Source of the DNA: Pseudovirgaria hyperparasitica
Lineage: Eukaryota > Ascomycota > Dothideomycetes > Acrospermales > Acrospermaceae
Reading direction: 5' to 3'
DNA length: 64,000 nucleotides
Assembly: GCF_010093815.1 (NCBI RefSeq)
Contig: NW_022985564.1
Coordinates: 354,590 to 418,589 of the forward strand
A program made the translations under genes and the position numbers. Below, piece by piece: positions 48,323 to 60,446 of the stretch. The notes beneath the pieces were generated by a model that saw nothing but the letters and a program-made list of their open reading frames with translations, did no database searches and was not told the origin of the DNA. Each line of letters opens with the position of its first letter. The first letter of the stretch is position 1.

Positions 48323-50498
48323 TCACTGCTTCTGGAGCTTCTCCAGCTTCTCAAGTACCTCATCGATCTTTTTGTAGCTCCAACTTTCATAGAATGCAGG
48401 ATACAGGAACGGTCGTAGATCGAATCGGTTGTCGTCTGGGCTGTAAGCTTCTGCGTGATATGCCGGTGTCATGGTCGTCATCTTGTGTCTATTGATGGCA
48501 TAAAAATGATAGAAACGCTTCACCTTCACGGCAATCTCACGCGGAGTCATCTCGTCTTTCCAATCATGAAGAAGGCGCTGGAAACAACCATACGGACCAA
48601 GCTTGTACTGCTTCCGCATGATACCGAATGTACTGAGTTCGGAATATGTCAGCCCCATGTCGGCTTCGTCGGACTGCACATAGTCTGCCGTAATCGGTTC
48701 GAGTTCGGCTGTTGGTACTGCATCGAGGAACTCATCGAGGATTGGAAGGTCGAACTCAGAGGAGGCCCAAGCGATGAACCGCTTGAGATCATTCTTACTG
48801 ACCGAGCCGATAGGGTTGATGTCCGCTGACGAGCAATCGTACTTTGTCAGATATCCACGGAGACACTCGTCGACATTAGCACTGCCTAGCACGAGCAAGC
48901 CGCCTCCGCCTTTGCGATTTCGTGTGGTTGGAAGCATCTGTGCAAACATATAAGTGGAAACCATACGGCTCCGGGCCTGAATATTCTGCAGAGCTAGATT
49001 CTCTGTGTTTGAGCCACCATGGACCTTGAAATTCGGTTCAAAGCCCGTGGCATCAGCTAACAAGGATTTGAAGGCTCCAAAAGCAGGATCAATGTTCGTA
49101 TCAATATGATACGCACCGATATTCTTCGCAAGGCGTTCTGCTCTGCTTCGCGTTTCCTGTGAAGATTGCGACTTCATCCCGAGATAGACGGTGTGGAAGA
49201 TTCTATTGCAGAGCTCCTGAGCGGTCTTGGGCATCCAACCCTCCTTTTCCAGCGCACCAGCAATTCTCTTCACATCACTGATGACTTGCTCGTTTCCTTG
49301 CTTGATGTGGTCCATGACTAAACGGCACATCGAAAAGACGATGACTGACGTAGCACAGCTGTCGATTCCGCCACTGAGAGGTACAATGAAGCCGGCAGCC
49401 TTTGAGCGTCGGAGATAGTCCCATAACCAACAGGCTGGACCGAGAGCGATCTCTTCCTCTGGCTTATGGTAGAAAATTGGTCGTCCCTGGGACGGGGCGA
49501 CAGAGAAATCCAGGTTGTCATCGTGGGGAGATAGACTGAATTTGGTCTCGATTCTCTGGTAAGCCGGTGCATGGATTGCTTGCAACCCTCGTGAAGGCGC
49601 AAATCTATAGGCGCGCACTTCTTCTAGGTCACAGGTCGCAGTGATGACTTCAACATCGTTCAGTGCAAATTGACTGCCCTGTGCAACGACCTCACCGTTT
49701 ATCAGAATGAGAGGCGCTCCATCGTAGTACAGACGGTCTCCATCACAACCACGCTGATTCGAGTAGATGTAGATTCCCCCGTTCTTTCTTGTGGCTTCTT
49801 GAATAAGTTCTAATCGAATGTTGAGCTTCCTCAGGTTGTGGTGCGACCCTGAGCTGTTGGTGATGACTTCGACGCCGTTCAGGGACATATTTGAGTGTGG
49901 GGAGTTCGGTACGAAGAGCTCCTCACATGTTTCCGCTCCGATGCAAGTATCAGGTGTAGATATGACAGCATCTCCAATAGGCACTGTGACAGAACCCTGA
50001 ATATCTTGTATCATCCTTGGAAGATACAATTGCTCTACATGCTGAGGCCTGGACCAAGGCGTGAAGTATCGCATTTCTACATAAGCATTAGAAAGTCGGA
50101 CAAGGCACAGCTTCCCACAACATACCACGATAGTTACCATCATTCGCAAGCCATAGCTTCGGTCTTACAAGGAGGATCTTGCCATCTAGAGCCAATACGC
50201 GACAGTTGTACCTTATGTTGCGATGCAGAACTGGCATTCCAATATCCAAAAGAATTCCGTTGCAGCTCTCATCGGTGAGAATCTTCTTCAACATCTCCCA
50301 GCTGTGTAGAAACACATCCTGCTCTAGAAAGTGGTCAAGTAGACCATAGCCAGTTATTTCCAACTCTGGACCGACGCGCAAAGTTGCCCCAGCAGCTTTC
50401 GCTCTTTTGATACTCTCGATGATGCGAGCTACATTGCCCTCGAAGTCCAACGACCACTGATTAAGGGAACATGCCGCAACGGTCACAAGGTGCCCCAT
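48323..50498 (-). CDS. QNS1: Glutamine-dependent NAD+ synthetase
   Basis: Converts nicotinic acid adenine dinucleotide to NAD+ with ATP and glutamine-derived ammonia, the last step of NAD+ synthesis. Two exons: 50498-50126 and 50076-48323 (2127 bases, 708 residues; the yeast enzyme is similar in length). The N-terminal nitrilase-type glutaminase has Glu in RVGPELEITGYG, Lys in RPKLWLANDGNY and the Cys nucleophile in GAETCEELF. The C-terminal ATP-pyrophosphatase domain has PLSGGIDSCATSVIV, then VLGSANVDECLRGYLTKYDC and SADINPIGSVSKNDLK. The start MGHLVTVAACSLNQWSLDFE is standard for the family. Its promoter faces that of the SANT plus ADP-ribosyltransferase-like gene. Confidence 0.97.
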
Positions 50499-51921: not shown

Positions 51922-54107
51922 ATGACTGTTGTATGGGAAGACGCCGGCACCGCTGGACGTTATCGAGTCCAGATCATGGTCCCGCAGCGCTCCAACAGCC
52001 TTTCAAACCAAGTGTCAGAACTGAGCCTGAAGCGACGAAGGCACGTCTCTCCGGATGTCGTCATATATGAGTCTCCCCAGACAGACCCCAAGTGGAGAGA
52101 CGAATATACCCAGTTCGGCGGCCTCGACGATGTAGATCTTCCTCGACGGAAGCTTCTTTTCATGCCGGGTGATGACCTTCACAGTCTCACCAATGCGAAG
52201 CCGCGAAGGTACGGAACCAGACAACTAGCATGACTGGCCTTATTATCTTGCTAAGAGTGTGTACCTAGGTGGACTTACAAAGAGCGCGTTTACCTTTGTG
52301 TCATGTACCGATACTTTGCCAACGACTTCGACGATATCACACTTGTTTTCAATAAGTGCTTCAAAAGCGTGGTCGAGCGCCGCGTGCTAAAGTCTCAGTA
52401 CATTAGTGAGCTTCGTTGGTACGGTGTGAGTATCAGCATACTTCCCCCATCCCAGCTCAACCCACTTCCACTCCATAATCTACGTCTGCAGTATTAGAGG
52501 CATTTTCTTAACAGCTTCTTTAGTATGACCGTGCGTGGGTACAAGTCAACAGGGACACCGCATTCGCAAACATAGGCGAGAAATGGGAGGCCGTGATCGA
52601 AGAGCTCGAAGCCTGCGCGGCAATGTGCTCTGTCGAACTTGTGCCGCGGAGCATCGACCCGCCGGATCTGTTCGCGAAGGAAGCAAAGCCTAGGTCTCCC
52701 GGGACTATCAAGCGCCTTAGACAGCTCAAGAAGCTGAGCAAAGTACCCATCAGTCTCAGCGATGATGAGGAAGAAGACGGATATGACGAATCGACCCATT
52801 CTCCAACCTCGGACGCGTCACTACTGGTAGTAACGCCCTCTACACTTCCATCGTCACAAGCAAGTCAAAGCCCCGAGTCACCGCTCTCATCTCCTGCAGA
52901 CAGCGTAGCAAGCCCCTTCCAGCATCTCGACAGACCAAGATTCACATTCCGATGCGACCACGCTACATCTGGCACAATCCGAGACGCACGCGGTCTGATC
53001 GGAGGAGAGTTCGATACCTGGCCGAACCTTGAGCGTAAGACGTGGCCCACCGCAGACGACATCTGCCTACAAGACCAAGTAATCCGACAGTAAGTCCCCT
53101 CCCAACACAGCCAAGCAGATATATCTTTCTTTGGGGAAGGAATTGAGATTTGGGCTGATTTATAATGACAAAAGTATCTGGCGCTCGGACAGTAGCCGTC
53201 CTTACTCTACGTGAGTCTCTCCCCTGTTCCGTTTAGGTTACTGTTCCTCTGACTTACTTACTTAACTCATGTTGACAGACTCGTTTCGACGTCCACAAGC
53301 TTGCTGGAGCTGTTTCGCCGCGCCGTGCCGAATATAGAGACCGCCACTATCAGTGTGATTGAATACGCAAAAATCGCAAACCACACCTATCACGCTGAAA
53401 GCCTTATTCGTCGCTTGAAGCCAACAGGCAATTTCATTGGCATGCACTGTACGTTGAACTCGTCAATCTGTGCACGAGCTCGAGACAGCAAACTGACAGT
53501 TGCATAAAAGACAAGGGCACGTGCGAATACCTAACATACAGCTATATCCCCAACGGCGCCATCGTACACGAGTTCAAGTTCGCAGACCTGCAAAACCGCC
53601 TCGTACACGCTGGCTACGGCGCCGCTATCCTCGAGCGTGTTGTTGGCAAACATGTATCCACGGTCAAAAGACAGATGTTCGAGAGTCCTATCCCGGCTGA
53701 TAATCGCGGTGCCGGCCTGATCGGGATCATCGCGTCGTTCTTTGGCGTGACTGCGGATTCAGATTCGGATTACGTCCAATTGATCGTTGTGCTACTGATG
53801 GACGCCCTAGTCATCGAGGTGAGCTCTTTCTCTCAATGCTTCTGGTCTACACTCACACACATACAAGCAAGACACTGACGTTCATTAGTTTGCAATTGAG
53901 CCTACCGAGGTAGAAATCGACAGTATTGTACAACACTTTGTCAGCGAATTACTCCGGCAGCCTGATGGCAACTTTGCACCTCTGGATGATTCCCACTTCC
54001 ATACGCTCAAATCCGGCTTCATACTAGGCTTAGTCCAGGGACACCAGAAGTTGAAAATTGAGAAACGTAAGTTGGACCGTGCTGAAAGTTCATACCGGCG
54101 ACGATGA
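51922..54107 (+). CDS. SANT-like N-terminus plus ADP-ribosyltransferase-like domain (DUF7587-like)
   Basis: 580 residues in seven exons: 51922-52208, 52269-52425, 52524-53089, 53175-53210, 53279-53448, 53511-53818 and 53889-54107. Residues about 96-185 (RWTYKERVYLCVMYRYFAND, DDITLVFNKCF) resemble a SANT/Myb-type helical domain. A Ser-rich acidic linker follows. Residues about 285-425 carry, in order, PRFTFRCD (Arg291), IGGEF, LVSTSTSLLELFRRA (S352-T353-S354) and GTCEYLTYSYIPNGAIVHEF (Glu411). This order and spacing resemble the Arg, STS and Glu motifs of R-S-E ADP-ribosyltransferases. I recall similar fungal regions as DUF7587; neither that name nor the fold was checked. A GTAAGT donor at about 54067 could start a further intron, so the last residues are uncertain. 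No signal peptide. Confidence 0.7.
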
Positions 54108-54684: not shown

Positions 54685-57600
54685 TCATTGACCGCTTACA
54701 ACGGGCAGATGTCTGTTTTGCTCGCAGCTGTCGTGCTCAGATCCATTCGTCGTAGTTGGTGGCGTTGCAAGCTGCGTAGGACTTTGCATCAAGGTGTCTA
54801 ATGGAGAAGCTTTCATGCAGTTCGCAAGATCGCTCGAGCTGGCCATAGGGTCGCTGATGTGGCCAGGGTGGTATGCTACAGTTTCAATGACATCAGCACC
54901 ATTTTCAGTCGGCGTCGAATCCTCAGTAGGTGGTGGAGGAGGCGGTGATGGCGTGTCAACTTTCGATCGTTTTGGCGATATGATATCATTGTGAGCGGTG
55001 ATTTCTTCTGGAGTGTTGTCGGCAGGTCTCTTCCTCTTGAGGCCTGGTGATCCAGATCTTACAGACCCAGACGGGGTATCGTTGATGTCGTCGAGCTCGA
55101 CATCTTTGCCGTCATGGTCTAATGCTGCGAAAGGCGAGGGCGCTGCAGGGATGTCATGAGGTTTCGTTGAATTGGATTTCGTTTCATCATTCTGTTTTGG
55201 CGCTTTTCGTTTGGATCGCTCCTCTTCTCGCCGCGCATGTTTTGTAGCAGCCTTCTCGAAGAACTGTGCAATGTGTTTGCGCACTAGCTTGACTTGGGTA
55301 TCATCCAAATGGTGAGGGTCGGACACTCGTTTGTGCTTGAAGTCAGATTTCGTCATAGATTCGCTGATCTGTAGTCACGAAGTGTTAAGAGGCAAATTTG
55401 GAGGTTACAGTCGAGAAAGCTCACCTCTTTACCGTAACGCTTCAGATCATCGCGGGGAAGTTTCTGCTTGTATTTGTCGATATAATGCTTGATATGTGGA
55501 TGCAGCTAAATACGGCTTGAGCTTTAGTTTCATAGTCTTGTTCCCTAGACTCACAGTATTTTTATATATTTTCATCTGCTTTTCTTCAGGTAAACTCCTC
55601 CATTTCTCTTTTCCGTCTTTTCTCGGTGTGGCGTTGGACGGTGTGGCAGACGTAGACAAAGGTTTATCTTTCGGTGTGGAGTTTGCAGTGATGCCATCGA
55701 TGATGTCCTGGAGCTTTTGCTGGTGTAATCTCTCCTGAGATATAGGTGGGGGTGGTGCTTGCGGCTGTGTTGCTGCGGTCGTCGGTCTCGTCCATTGTGT
55801 TTCGCCTCCGCCTTGGGTATAATAGTACGTACGGCCACCGCGCGGGTCTATAGCCGAAAGCCAACCAGGCGGGAGAGGTAGTGTGGGTGGAGGAGGTCGC
55901 CTGAAAGTGGAAGCCCTTGGACCTGTTGGAGCAGCAAAGTTTCTCTGTGGCAGTGAAGATTTAGGCCCAGATGGAACACCAACAGGTACAGATGGTCCTT
56001 TCGGTCCTTTGGGCGGCTCCGGCGAGCGTGACCTGGAGCGCGACCTACCCCTACCATTAGTCCTGCGGTCGAGTCTTTCCACCTTGACTGGTGCCGCGTT
56101 CGGATCTCTCTTCACTCGCGGGATCCTGTAAGCAACTTCTAGTTTGCTCCAAATATCGAGTAATGCCAGCGCCCTAGTCTTGACCCTCTCATCCTCGTTG
56201 GTGGCAAGCTTCTCAACGGTCTCCTCAATTTTGGCATCTTGAATCTTGTTCCTAGTGATGCGCGGTAAGGAGTCCAGAACGTCCAGAACCTGCAAGATGA
56301 CATTTGAATCTTCCATCCACTGTATAAGGGTTGCCTTCATAATTTGGTACCCGTGCATCTTGACGACCCGGCTCAGAATTCGCTCATCCTCGACTCGTTG
56401 CAAACGACCCAGAAGCTTAACAGCGATCCATTTCTCCTTGCACTGTCTGAGCGAGGCCATGACTTTGGTGACACCGCTTTCTTCCAATAATTTCGGTTGT
56501 ACATTGTTGACATATTCCTCATCCGCTTCGCCAAGTTTCTTCTTCCTGGGTCGTTTCGAAGTGGCCTCGTCCCAATCCTCGCCATCGAGGATACCCAGCG
56601 CTTCAATTGTGATATTGGAAAGCTTGGGCGCATCGTCGGTCTGAGTCTTGCCTCCTATGAAACCAGAGCAGTTGGGTTCACCACAGTAGCACGGCTGAGG
56701 GTCCGCACCATATCGGTCTACATTATAATTGAAGACCAATTCTTCGCCTGCTCTGATCTTGCGTTCGGCGAATATGCCCATGCGTAGCTTATCTCCAATC
56801 ACCCATTTGTCGACGTAGCAATTCGGATTGCAAGAATGATTGCAAAATCTGCCCAAGTTTCCTCTCTTTGTTGCATCCACAAACTCGCCCCTGCTGAGTG
56901 ACATGAAGTAGAAGTGCTTGATGCCTTCTTCATCATATTGGCGCATTCGTCGACGAAAATTGCCTTCGTTGATAACTTCTCCAATGTATTCAAAAATGAA
57001 ATCACCCTCACGTAGGTCGGTATTGGCGCGAAGACCGTAACCTTTCTTTTCAGTCTGAATTACAGACACGTTGGCATACTGCTTGCGCTGAAACCGCTGA
57101 TTCTGGCAGTCCGTGCCACAGCCGCACTCCCCAAGACACTCCATTTTGGTGGCCCGATTGATGCAGTCGGAATCTTCGCCACAAGCAAAGTTCATTTGCG
57201 TTGCCGAATCTGCTCGCAAGGTTAGTCCAATTGAAATGGCATGGTCAGAAAGGTTTTGCAGTGCTTTGCAGCTGACGTACCCCACTCCTCTGGACAGTCG
57301 CACTCCAAAGCGTGCTCTGTTTCGCCCAAGTACTTGGGGGTGTAAGTGCAATCTGAGAGGACCAGAAATTTAGAAACGGCTTCTTGTGTCTTATCCGGAA
57401 GATCGTTATACAGCGGCGGTGGTCGGGGAACAATCTTTTGCGACGCTGTTCGTGCCAGTCTTGGAATCTTGCCTGGCTCCAACTTGAGTGTAATTTCGCC
57501 ACCTATGGTTTCCTCCTGTTCCGCCGGAGTGGCCGGGGACTGCAACTCTTTCTCCATCTTGTGTGGTGACAGCGAGGCTGATGCGAATTTGAGAGCAGTC

Positions 57601-57764
57601 GGAGCGACGTCGCTGTTAGGAGTAGAGGACCGTTGTCGGCCGGCAGGGGACTGAAGATGGCCATCTGTGCGTAGAGGACTAGGAGAACCTTCTTCTTCAA
57701 TCTTCATCTCGCGCAGCTCGGGTTCTAGTTGCGCTGACTGGCGATCACCGTCATCTTCCGACAT
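54685..57764 (-). CDS. SET2: Histone H3 lysine-36 methyltransferase Set2
   Basis: Methylates H3K36 during RNA polymerase II elongation. Four exons: 57764-57281, 57209-55555, 55505-55425 and 55368-54685 (2904 bases, 967 residues). Domains in order: AWS ([20 protein letters not shown] onward, residues about 154-200), SET ([63 protein letters not shown]), post-SET ([14 protein letters not shown]), a helical TFIIS-like/autoinhibitory region, a basic SRSRSRS stretch, a WW domain ([20 protein letters not shown], about 606-637), and the C-terminal SRI domain binding the polymerase CTD ([20 protein letters not shown], then [12 protein letters not shown], about 700-790). The small third exon of 81 bases encodes the SRI core. 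The tail after 800 is disordered and Pro/Ser-rich. Confidence 0.97.
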
Positions 57765-60446
57765 ATCGTGTGGTTGGGTGAGGGAGCGGGACAGGGAGCT
57801 GGCAGACGTGATCGCGACCGTGAATCAAAGGACGCTAAGCGATCCCTTCAGGCAAGACAGAGGACTGGTTATAACTCCACCATGACCTTCTCCAGGCGAC
57901 AGGCTCCCAGCAGTTAATCCACCTCCTTGTCTCGTTCACGGCTCTATTGTCATGTAAGTCCAATTGCCTGTCTGTGCATGCGAGTGTAGCCTTCGACCGG
58001 CAAAACGGGCAGCCTCTGAAAGAAGTGGGCCGGCCCCTATTTTCACGAACAAGAATTTGCGCGCGTATCGTCAAGAAGGCGAAAGATACAAAGGAGTGAA
58101 GACGTGTGGGTGGGACTCGGTGTGGGAATTGAAGCGTGCGTCGACATCCAGGCGGAGAAGGTGCTAGCCGATCGTAGTGAAGAGCGGCGCACCGAGAGGT
58201 GTTCTTTAGATGTCACGCAGCTGACTGTCTTGACGTCTCGTAAGTCTTCAGCTGCGGCGTATGCGGCTTATCGAGTCGTTTGTTGAAGTCAACAATAAGG
58301 AGCGCCGGTTGGAACGCAAAACCAGGCTCTCACGCTGACTTCAGTCCAAGTTCCGACGCTCTCTCGGCAAAGATACGCTAGAGCTACCTCTGGCTCCGGC
58401 TGGCAGAGCAGCCTGGGGCCACAACAACATCTCAATTCGACGCCAAACTGTGAGAACTTCAATAGGGAATCTTAGATCCACAAGACATGTGTGGATTGAT
58501 GACTTCGACGGTGCGAACATCGATAGAGTAGGTATAAAAGCAGTTGCTATGATACAACCGTGAGAGCATCTGGTGATTGGCCGCTTCCTAGCTAAATAGT
58601 GGTCACAGCAAATGAAAAGCGAACATTCGCATGCTGTGGCTGCAATTGACCTTGATCAAGACTACGTATCATGAGTATGGGCCGTGGACTGTTTCGAATG
58701 GGCGCCCTGCAAATAGGGAGTTCGAAGCTTTGAATCTCACATCTGGAGCCTGCACTCGCCGACCTGTACGATTTGACCGACACCTTTTGGTAGCTCTGGG
58801 CTTGATGGAATGGGATGTGGCTATGCGAGTCTTGGTAAATCTACTTGTGATACCCATCAGGTGTAACGACGTACACGCGGTGGCTTCGTTCGCGGCGTAC
58901 TGCGTGGTTGACAGCAGCCAAGTTGAAACAGCTCAGTAGAAAGGGACTTTCTCGAATGAGTAATACATTCGCGAGGCCATCTCTTTCTGGCATGCAAGTA
59001 AAAGCACAGCACAGTTTGATCATGATCTTGTGACCCACTTTGCCATCGAATGTAGGAAGACAGATAGACATCGTCATGTTGATGACATTCCTCAAACTGA
59101 ACCGGTGAGGACGGCAGGTCTATCTTACCAACCATGGACGGGCGAGTAGGAGCGAGTCCTGCGGTTGTATAATCATGCGCATCGGCTGCTGGGTCATCTA
59201 ATATGCAGGAAAGCCTGTCGGGTTCAGAGGCTTGAGTTTTCTCTCCCAATGGGGCCTGCCGATTCGTTCTCGTAGCCAATGTATCGTTGAGACAAATTTA
59301 CATATGAGAAGAAATGCACTCGCCAATGGAGTAAGCAAGCCCACGGCCACTGCCGACTAATGTATATCTAGCACAGGATCAAATTTTTTTCTTTGGAGGT
59401 GTTGAACGAATTTGTGCGGAGTGGCGGTCATGCTGAGCGCAATTAATATGCGCATTTGGACGCCGGCTCCATCATCTTGCAAGGATATGCATGCTTCGTT
59501 AGGGATCCAAGCACCGAGAAATCCAGCGCGCGGTGAAAATAGTATTACTGTATGATGGAACAGGAGCATTTTACAATGTACGACCGAAGGAAATGCGGGA
59601 CGAGCCGACCGCACCAAAGCTTTGATCTAGAGCATCCTCGGAAGAAGGAGTTGTGTTGGCAGTTGGAATGATGCGTTGGCCCTGCAGGAGTTCGCTATAT
59701 GATTTGGCAGTGAGTGTTGACGGCGATCAGAAACATGTCTGAATGCATTAGTGTCTGAAAGTATATAATGCGAAGAGAATGCATTCTTGACTACTACTCA
59801 ATCTCTCACACCTTCTAGATGACACCTGGCGGACTAGAAGGATTCAAGGGATCCAGGGGACATAAAGAGGGGCAGTGACAGTGTCCAAGTGACAGCGACA
59901 GGGGTTCTGGTATGGAAGCTTGGAGGAATTACTATTTCGTTGGTACCTCCGTTCCCAGGAAGAATCGAGTCTGCATACTGATCAGCCGAAGCGCCTTTTG
60001 AACGACCGAGACGTCCAGTGACAGCCTGTCAGGATCGTGTCAAAGAGCTCTGATGACCTTGGATATGCAGGCTCTAGCAGGAGGACAGCTGCACAGAGCA
60101 GTAGAGCAAGTTACTTACCTGCAACCTGCTCAGCCTATATCGCCCAGGGCTCCCAAGGTTGTGTTCTATCGCGCAATGTCCGATAAGGTTGAAGGCGAAG
60201 CGAAGAGCGATCTGAGACAAGGAAGTCGTTTGACAGCATCCATGATTCCATACCACTCCTCAGCGGCGGCACCTGTAACTGCACCTAGCCTATTTGCAAC
60301 AACACGTTGATGTCCACGCTCGCTCTCTCTCCCTCACATGTCGAGAGGACAAATCCAAGCCGAACCCCAAGTCGCGCAGGCATCCATGCAGAGTCCAGGT
60401 CTCAATCAATAATCTTCGAGTATTCCGCCCTTTTTCGATGAGTTGA

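Follow-up and report, generated by a model that had tools for sequence, protein, structure and literature searches.

The R-S-E (arginine, serine, glutamate) clade of ADP-ribosyltransferases is named in PMC3482391, which places toxin-like members, Tox-ART-RSE, in ascomycetes as well as basidiomycetes. Secreted ADP-ribosyltransferase-like proteins, some of them enterotoxin-like, are described for Beauveria in PMC12099005, and the existence of R-S-E ADP-ribosyltransferases in fungi is already known from these two sources. A eukaryotic family of the LRRC9 type is ADP-ribosyltransferase-like by prediction, and its authors think that it consists mostly of pseudo-enzymes (PMC7955679). The subject of our analysis is a gene on a 64,000-nucleotide stretch of the genome of the ascomycete Pseudovirgaria hyperparasitica (contig NW_022985564.1, positions 354,590 to 418,589; hereafter the window), which encodes a protein with the domain DUF7587 (PF24494). 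Pfam lists DUF7587 as a domain of unknown function, and we take it to be a fungal family; placing it among the R-S-E ADP-ribosyltransferases seems to be the new element of this work. The full explanation that we consider best, and to which we give somewhat better than even weight, is that the gene encodes an intact fungal protein of 580 amino acids (aa) whose DUF7587 domain would be an R-S-E domain carrying out NAD-dependent transfer of ADP-ribose inside the cell.

Residues 285-432 of the window protein match DUF7587 with an E value of 1.8e-24 and 87 bits over positions 2-146 of the 146 in the profile, which passes the PF24494 gathering cut-off of 27 bits. Within this domain PRFTFRCD contains Arg291, LVSTSTSLLEL contains Ser352-Thr353-Ser354, and CEYLTYSYIPNGAIV contains Glu411; Arg and Ser are 61 residues apart, Ser and Glu 59. 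The domain and the motif codons are located as follows.

52932..53590, + strand: DUF7587 / predicted ADP-ribosyltransferase-like domain, residues 285-432, PF24494 match, three introns inside
52950..52952, + strand: Arg291 codon, the predicted first-strand catalytic Arg, PF24494 profile position 8
53286..53294, + strand: Ser352-Thr353-Ser354 codons, predicted S-x-[ST] strand, PF24494 profile positions 65-67
53525..53527, + strand: Glu411 codon, predicted catalytic Glu in the C-terminal third, PF24494 profile position 125

An earlier note on this DNA had described an intact gene carrying these residues, and the spliced open frame indeed holds all of them where the note had placed them. The motif by itself is modest evidence, because shuffled sequences reproduce it. 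Of 20,000 sequences shuffled over the whole protein, 309 contained the strict R...STS...E...P pattern, and of 20,000 shuffled over residues 285-432, 13 did; a looser pattern came up in 3,372 and 293 and the loosest in 19,088 and 3,947, respectively, all three patterns having been drawn up after the protein had been seen. We take the motif as real because of the DUF7587 match, which runs across four exons, and because of the fold result obtained with a paralogue.

Searching the 35.0-Mb assembly (59 contigs) with PF24494 gave seven matches, which represent five other loci (L002, L003, L004, L005 and L007) and two exons of the window gene. L002 to L005 lie above the cut-off and L007 lies below it, for a total of five genes above the cut-off when the window gene is included; hmmscan of the paralogues' open frames placed the same four above it and gave L007 21.5 bits against 27. 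Direct similarity is weak, the scores of the window domain against a hidden Markov model of the five paralogues being -3.0, 3.0 and -0.6 bits with three alignments, so the kinship of the window protein with its paralogues rests on their separate PF24494 matches. The full window protein searched against its own genome matched its own exons only, the search being taken up to E 1. No relative of the window domain or of L002 was found in prokaryote genomes and no DUF7587 relative in viral contigs, both searches reaching close relatives only, and none was detected in plasmids; the residue conservation described below therefore has six loci of a single genome as its basis. On contig C7, about 15 kb separate L007 from L005. 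L002 and L003 form a second DUF7587 subfamily, with a mutual identity of 25% over the aligned stretch and with an Arg, a Ser and a more distal Glu common to both.

The fold was approached through the predicted structure of one DUF7587 paralogue (predicted template-modelling score, pTM, 0.66). When this model was compared with the PDB using Foldseek, ranks 1-24 were all occupied by the ADP-ribosyltransferase superfamily and were followed by an unrelated row with a probability of 0.05, and a second aligner gave chains of the same superfamily in all of the best 50 rows listed. Judged by the starts of the aligned ranges, the Arg of the paralogue lines up with residue 7 of cholera/LT A and with residue 9 of pertussis S1, which we take to be the catalytic Arg of these toxins. 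In view of this run of a single superfamily and of the position of the Arg, it seems very unlikely that DUF7587 has a different fold and that the motif and fold matches arose by chance. PDB sequence searches matched no ADP-ribosyltransferase chain. In profile searches of the PDB (A1 and A3) all rows were of other kinds, among them a potassium channel, an inositol kinase and a ribosomal protein. The fold comparison suggested in the earlier note, here run on the paralogue model, came out as the note expected for the top-ranked folds and the catalytic Arg. The model of a member of the second subfamily (A4) had a predicted local distance difference test (pLDDT) value of 30.7 and was too poor for use. 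Among predicted viral structures, the best 50 of 54 matches all had probabilities <=0.18, and one match with a probability of 0.16 was a Tpt1-like protein. From the paralogue model we infer that the window protein would share the ADP-ribosyltransferase fold.

Conservation of the active site was read from PF24494 profile positions, which were counted from the ends of the matches assuming a gap-free stretch to the residue. All five members readable at position 8 (window protein, L002, L003, L004 and L005) have Arg there, the L007 match stopping short of it. At position 125, Glu is found in L005, L007 and the window protein, three of the four readable members; L002 and L003 have matches that end earlier. 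In fragments beginning at the second strand and compared with Pfam, position 65 is Ser in the window protein (Ser352) and in L002 to L005, and at position 67 these five have Ser or Thr, the L007 fragment giving no match; this S-x-[ST] register is partly forced, because the start points of the fragments were chosen by the analyst. A longer window fragment holding both sides, read from its end, also puts Ser352 at position 65. In a MAFFT alignment of the six members, Arg and Glu are each kept in five of six.

Two results speak against this register of the S-x-[ST] strand: a window fragment truncated behind Ser352 matched as far as Tyr347, which took position 63, and in the MAFFT alignments of the six members the family Ser is paired with the window Thr instead of Ser352, either result leaving the strand about three residues off. 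At position 125 the fourth readable member, L004, has His for Glu, and the divergent L007 has Met in the Arg column (in MAFFT alignments only). Because of these last two substitutions the DUF7587 family may include inactive members, and the seeming lack of a key residue in two of the five paralogues speaks for the window protein, too, being a pseudo-enzyme that has kept the ADP-ribosyltransferase fold but does no more than bind a partner, NAD or ADP-ribose. Against this, the window protein has Arg, S-x-[ST] and Glu together, and we hold the pseudo-enzyme to be unlikely. The R-S-E domain proposed in the earlier note thus keeps the backing of the paralogue model's best PDB matches and of an Arg and a Ser kept wherever they could be read, and is qualified by the His and the Met. 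Since Arg and Ser are kept and Glu mostly so among the members, and since the paralogue model matches ADP-ribosyltransferases, DUF7587 most likely belongs, as a family, to the R-S-E clade.

In R-S-E enzymes the Arg holds the phosphates of NAD, the S-x-[ST] strand shapes the nicotinamide pocket and the Glu stabilises the ribose cation. By analogy, these roles would fall to Arg291, to the strand with Ser352 and Ser354 and to Glu411 of the window protein, and ADP-ribose would be passed to an intracellular target. The likeliest reaction would be mono-ADP-ribosylation, with the target chosen by the N-terminal region. The same analogy would have the protein be active, transfer rather than hydrolyse and act inside the cell. 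Transfer to water would instead make it an NAD glycohydrolase that cleaves NAD, for instance with a self-destruct or self/non-self function within the cell; NAD(P)-hydrolysing enzymes with an ADP-ribosyltransferase fold are reported in PMC13285283, and a surface NADase also occurs in fungi according to PMC7955114. A chosen target fits the fused extra N-terminal region better, and we regard hydrolysis as distinctly unlikely. Under the preferred explanation, ADP-ribose transfer, a Pfam domain that had no function would acquire a probable chemistry, the NAD-dependent transfer of ADP-ribose, and an active site that can be tested.

The gene is real and intact. It occupies positions 51922-54107 of the window (+) and consists of seven exons and six introns of 60-98 nt, GT..AG throughout, with junctions picked by eye without transcript data, and the joined frame is open for 1743 nt (580 aa plus stop). 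The exons are listed below.

51922..52208, + strand: exon 1, start codon at 51922; encodes residues 1-95 and ends two bases into codon 96; open frame, GT donor
52269..52425, + strand: exon 2, the earlier note's SANT/Myb-like region; open frame, AG acceptor, GT donor; no Pfam Myb/SANT match
52524..53089, + strand: exon 3, end of the N-terminal region, Ser/Asp/Pro-rich linker (residues 225-285) and start of DUF7587
53175..53210, + strand: exon 4, 36 nt, within DUF7587
53279..53448, + strand: exon 5, within DUF7587, carries the STS strand; alone matches PF24494 positions 63-113
53511..53818, + strand: exon 6, end of DUF7587 including Glu411, then C-terminal region; alone matches PF24494 positions 117-146
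53889..54107, + strand: exon 7, C-terminal region with no known family; stop at 54105-54107

The N-terminal SANT/Myb-like domain of the earlier note found no support in the sequence: Pfam scans of the window protein gave no Myb/SANT family up to E 10 (HMMER filters can lose weak matches), and the N-terminal region searched by sequence against the PDB gave one chance-level row. Outside DUF7587 no Pfam family reached its cut-off in the window protein, the weak row DUF711 (E 0.036) lying below it. In line with the absence of a signal peptide stated in the earlier note, the N-terminus has no hydrophobic run (best 19-residue Kyte-Doolittle mean of 0.15 for segments starting at residues 1-40). Two basic stretches, KRRR (from residue 37) and KRLR (from residue 211), may be weak hints of a nuclear signal. 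Residues 493-511 (53771-53818 plus 53889-53897) are hydrophobic, with a Kyte-Doolittle mean of 2.21, and contain Asp and Glu; they could form a membrane helix or a buried helix, and membrane contact is possible. A more specific proposal is that the DUF7587 proteins are intracellular mono-ADP-ribosyltransferases of the R-S-E type, a fungal family not recognised so far, and that in the architecture of the window protein a Myb-like N-terminus brings the enzyme to DNA or chromatin. This appears unlikely, and a nuclear or DNA role of the window protein is a guess. If the proposal were true, fungi would have a nuclear ADP-ribosylation system besides PARP.

Upstream of the DUF7587 gene and on the opposite strand lies a gene (48323-50164, -) that, by its architecture of NAD_synthase and amidase-type CN_hydrolase, is probably a glutamine-dependent NAD synthetase. 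Converging on the DUF7587 gene from the other side is a Set2-type histone methyltransferase (frames 54685-57369, -) with SRI, SET, AWS, WW and Med26-like matches, and the open frame 57222-57824 may be its start. That both neighbours fit an NAD-using chromatin enzyme is suggestive, and neighbourhood in fungi is weak evidence. The genome contains matches to the PARP, Tpt1, macrodomain and ADP-ribosylglycohydrolase families, so the reading and erasure of ADP-ribose marks from a second, non-PARP source may be possible there. One ADP-ribosylglycohydrolase match (G000:C16:527690-528619) shares a contig with the window and lies about 109 kb past the window's end.

Our literature search found no paper naming DUF7587 or its numbers, and a wider search showed, among the papers listed, none placing DUF7587 among the ADP-ribosyltransferases, subscription papers being outside the coverage of both; InterPro may already give such proteins an ADP-ribosylation superfamily label. 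With the R-S-E toxins cholera/LT A and pertussis S1 the likeness lies in the paralogue's predicted fold and in the order of Arg, S-x-[ST] and Glu; in contrast to them, the window protein has no hydrophobic N-terminus, carries extra N- and C-terminal regions and gives no PDB sequence match to such a chain. Tpt1/KptA and DarT act on RNA or DNA, and the genome has a separate Tpt1-family gene besides the DUF7587 gene. CCTX2 was considered as a relative and set aside, its fold differing by its authors' account (PMC13324453). The Tox-ART-RSE and Beauveria proteins would share their superfamily with the window protein and are likewise fungal; unlike the secreted Beauveria proteins (PMC12099005), the window protein is a DUF7587 member and lacks a hydrophobic N-terminus. 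Like DUF7587, the LRRC9-type family is a eukaryotic family placed in the fold by prediction, but according to PMC7955679 its domain sits between leucine-rich repeats and has no clear active site, whereas the window protein retains R-S-E.
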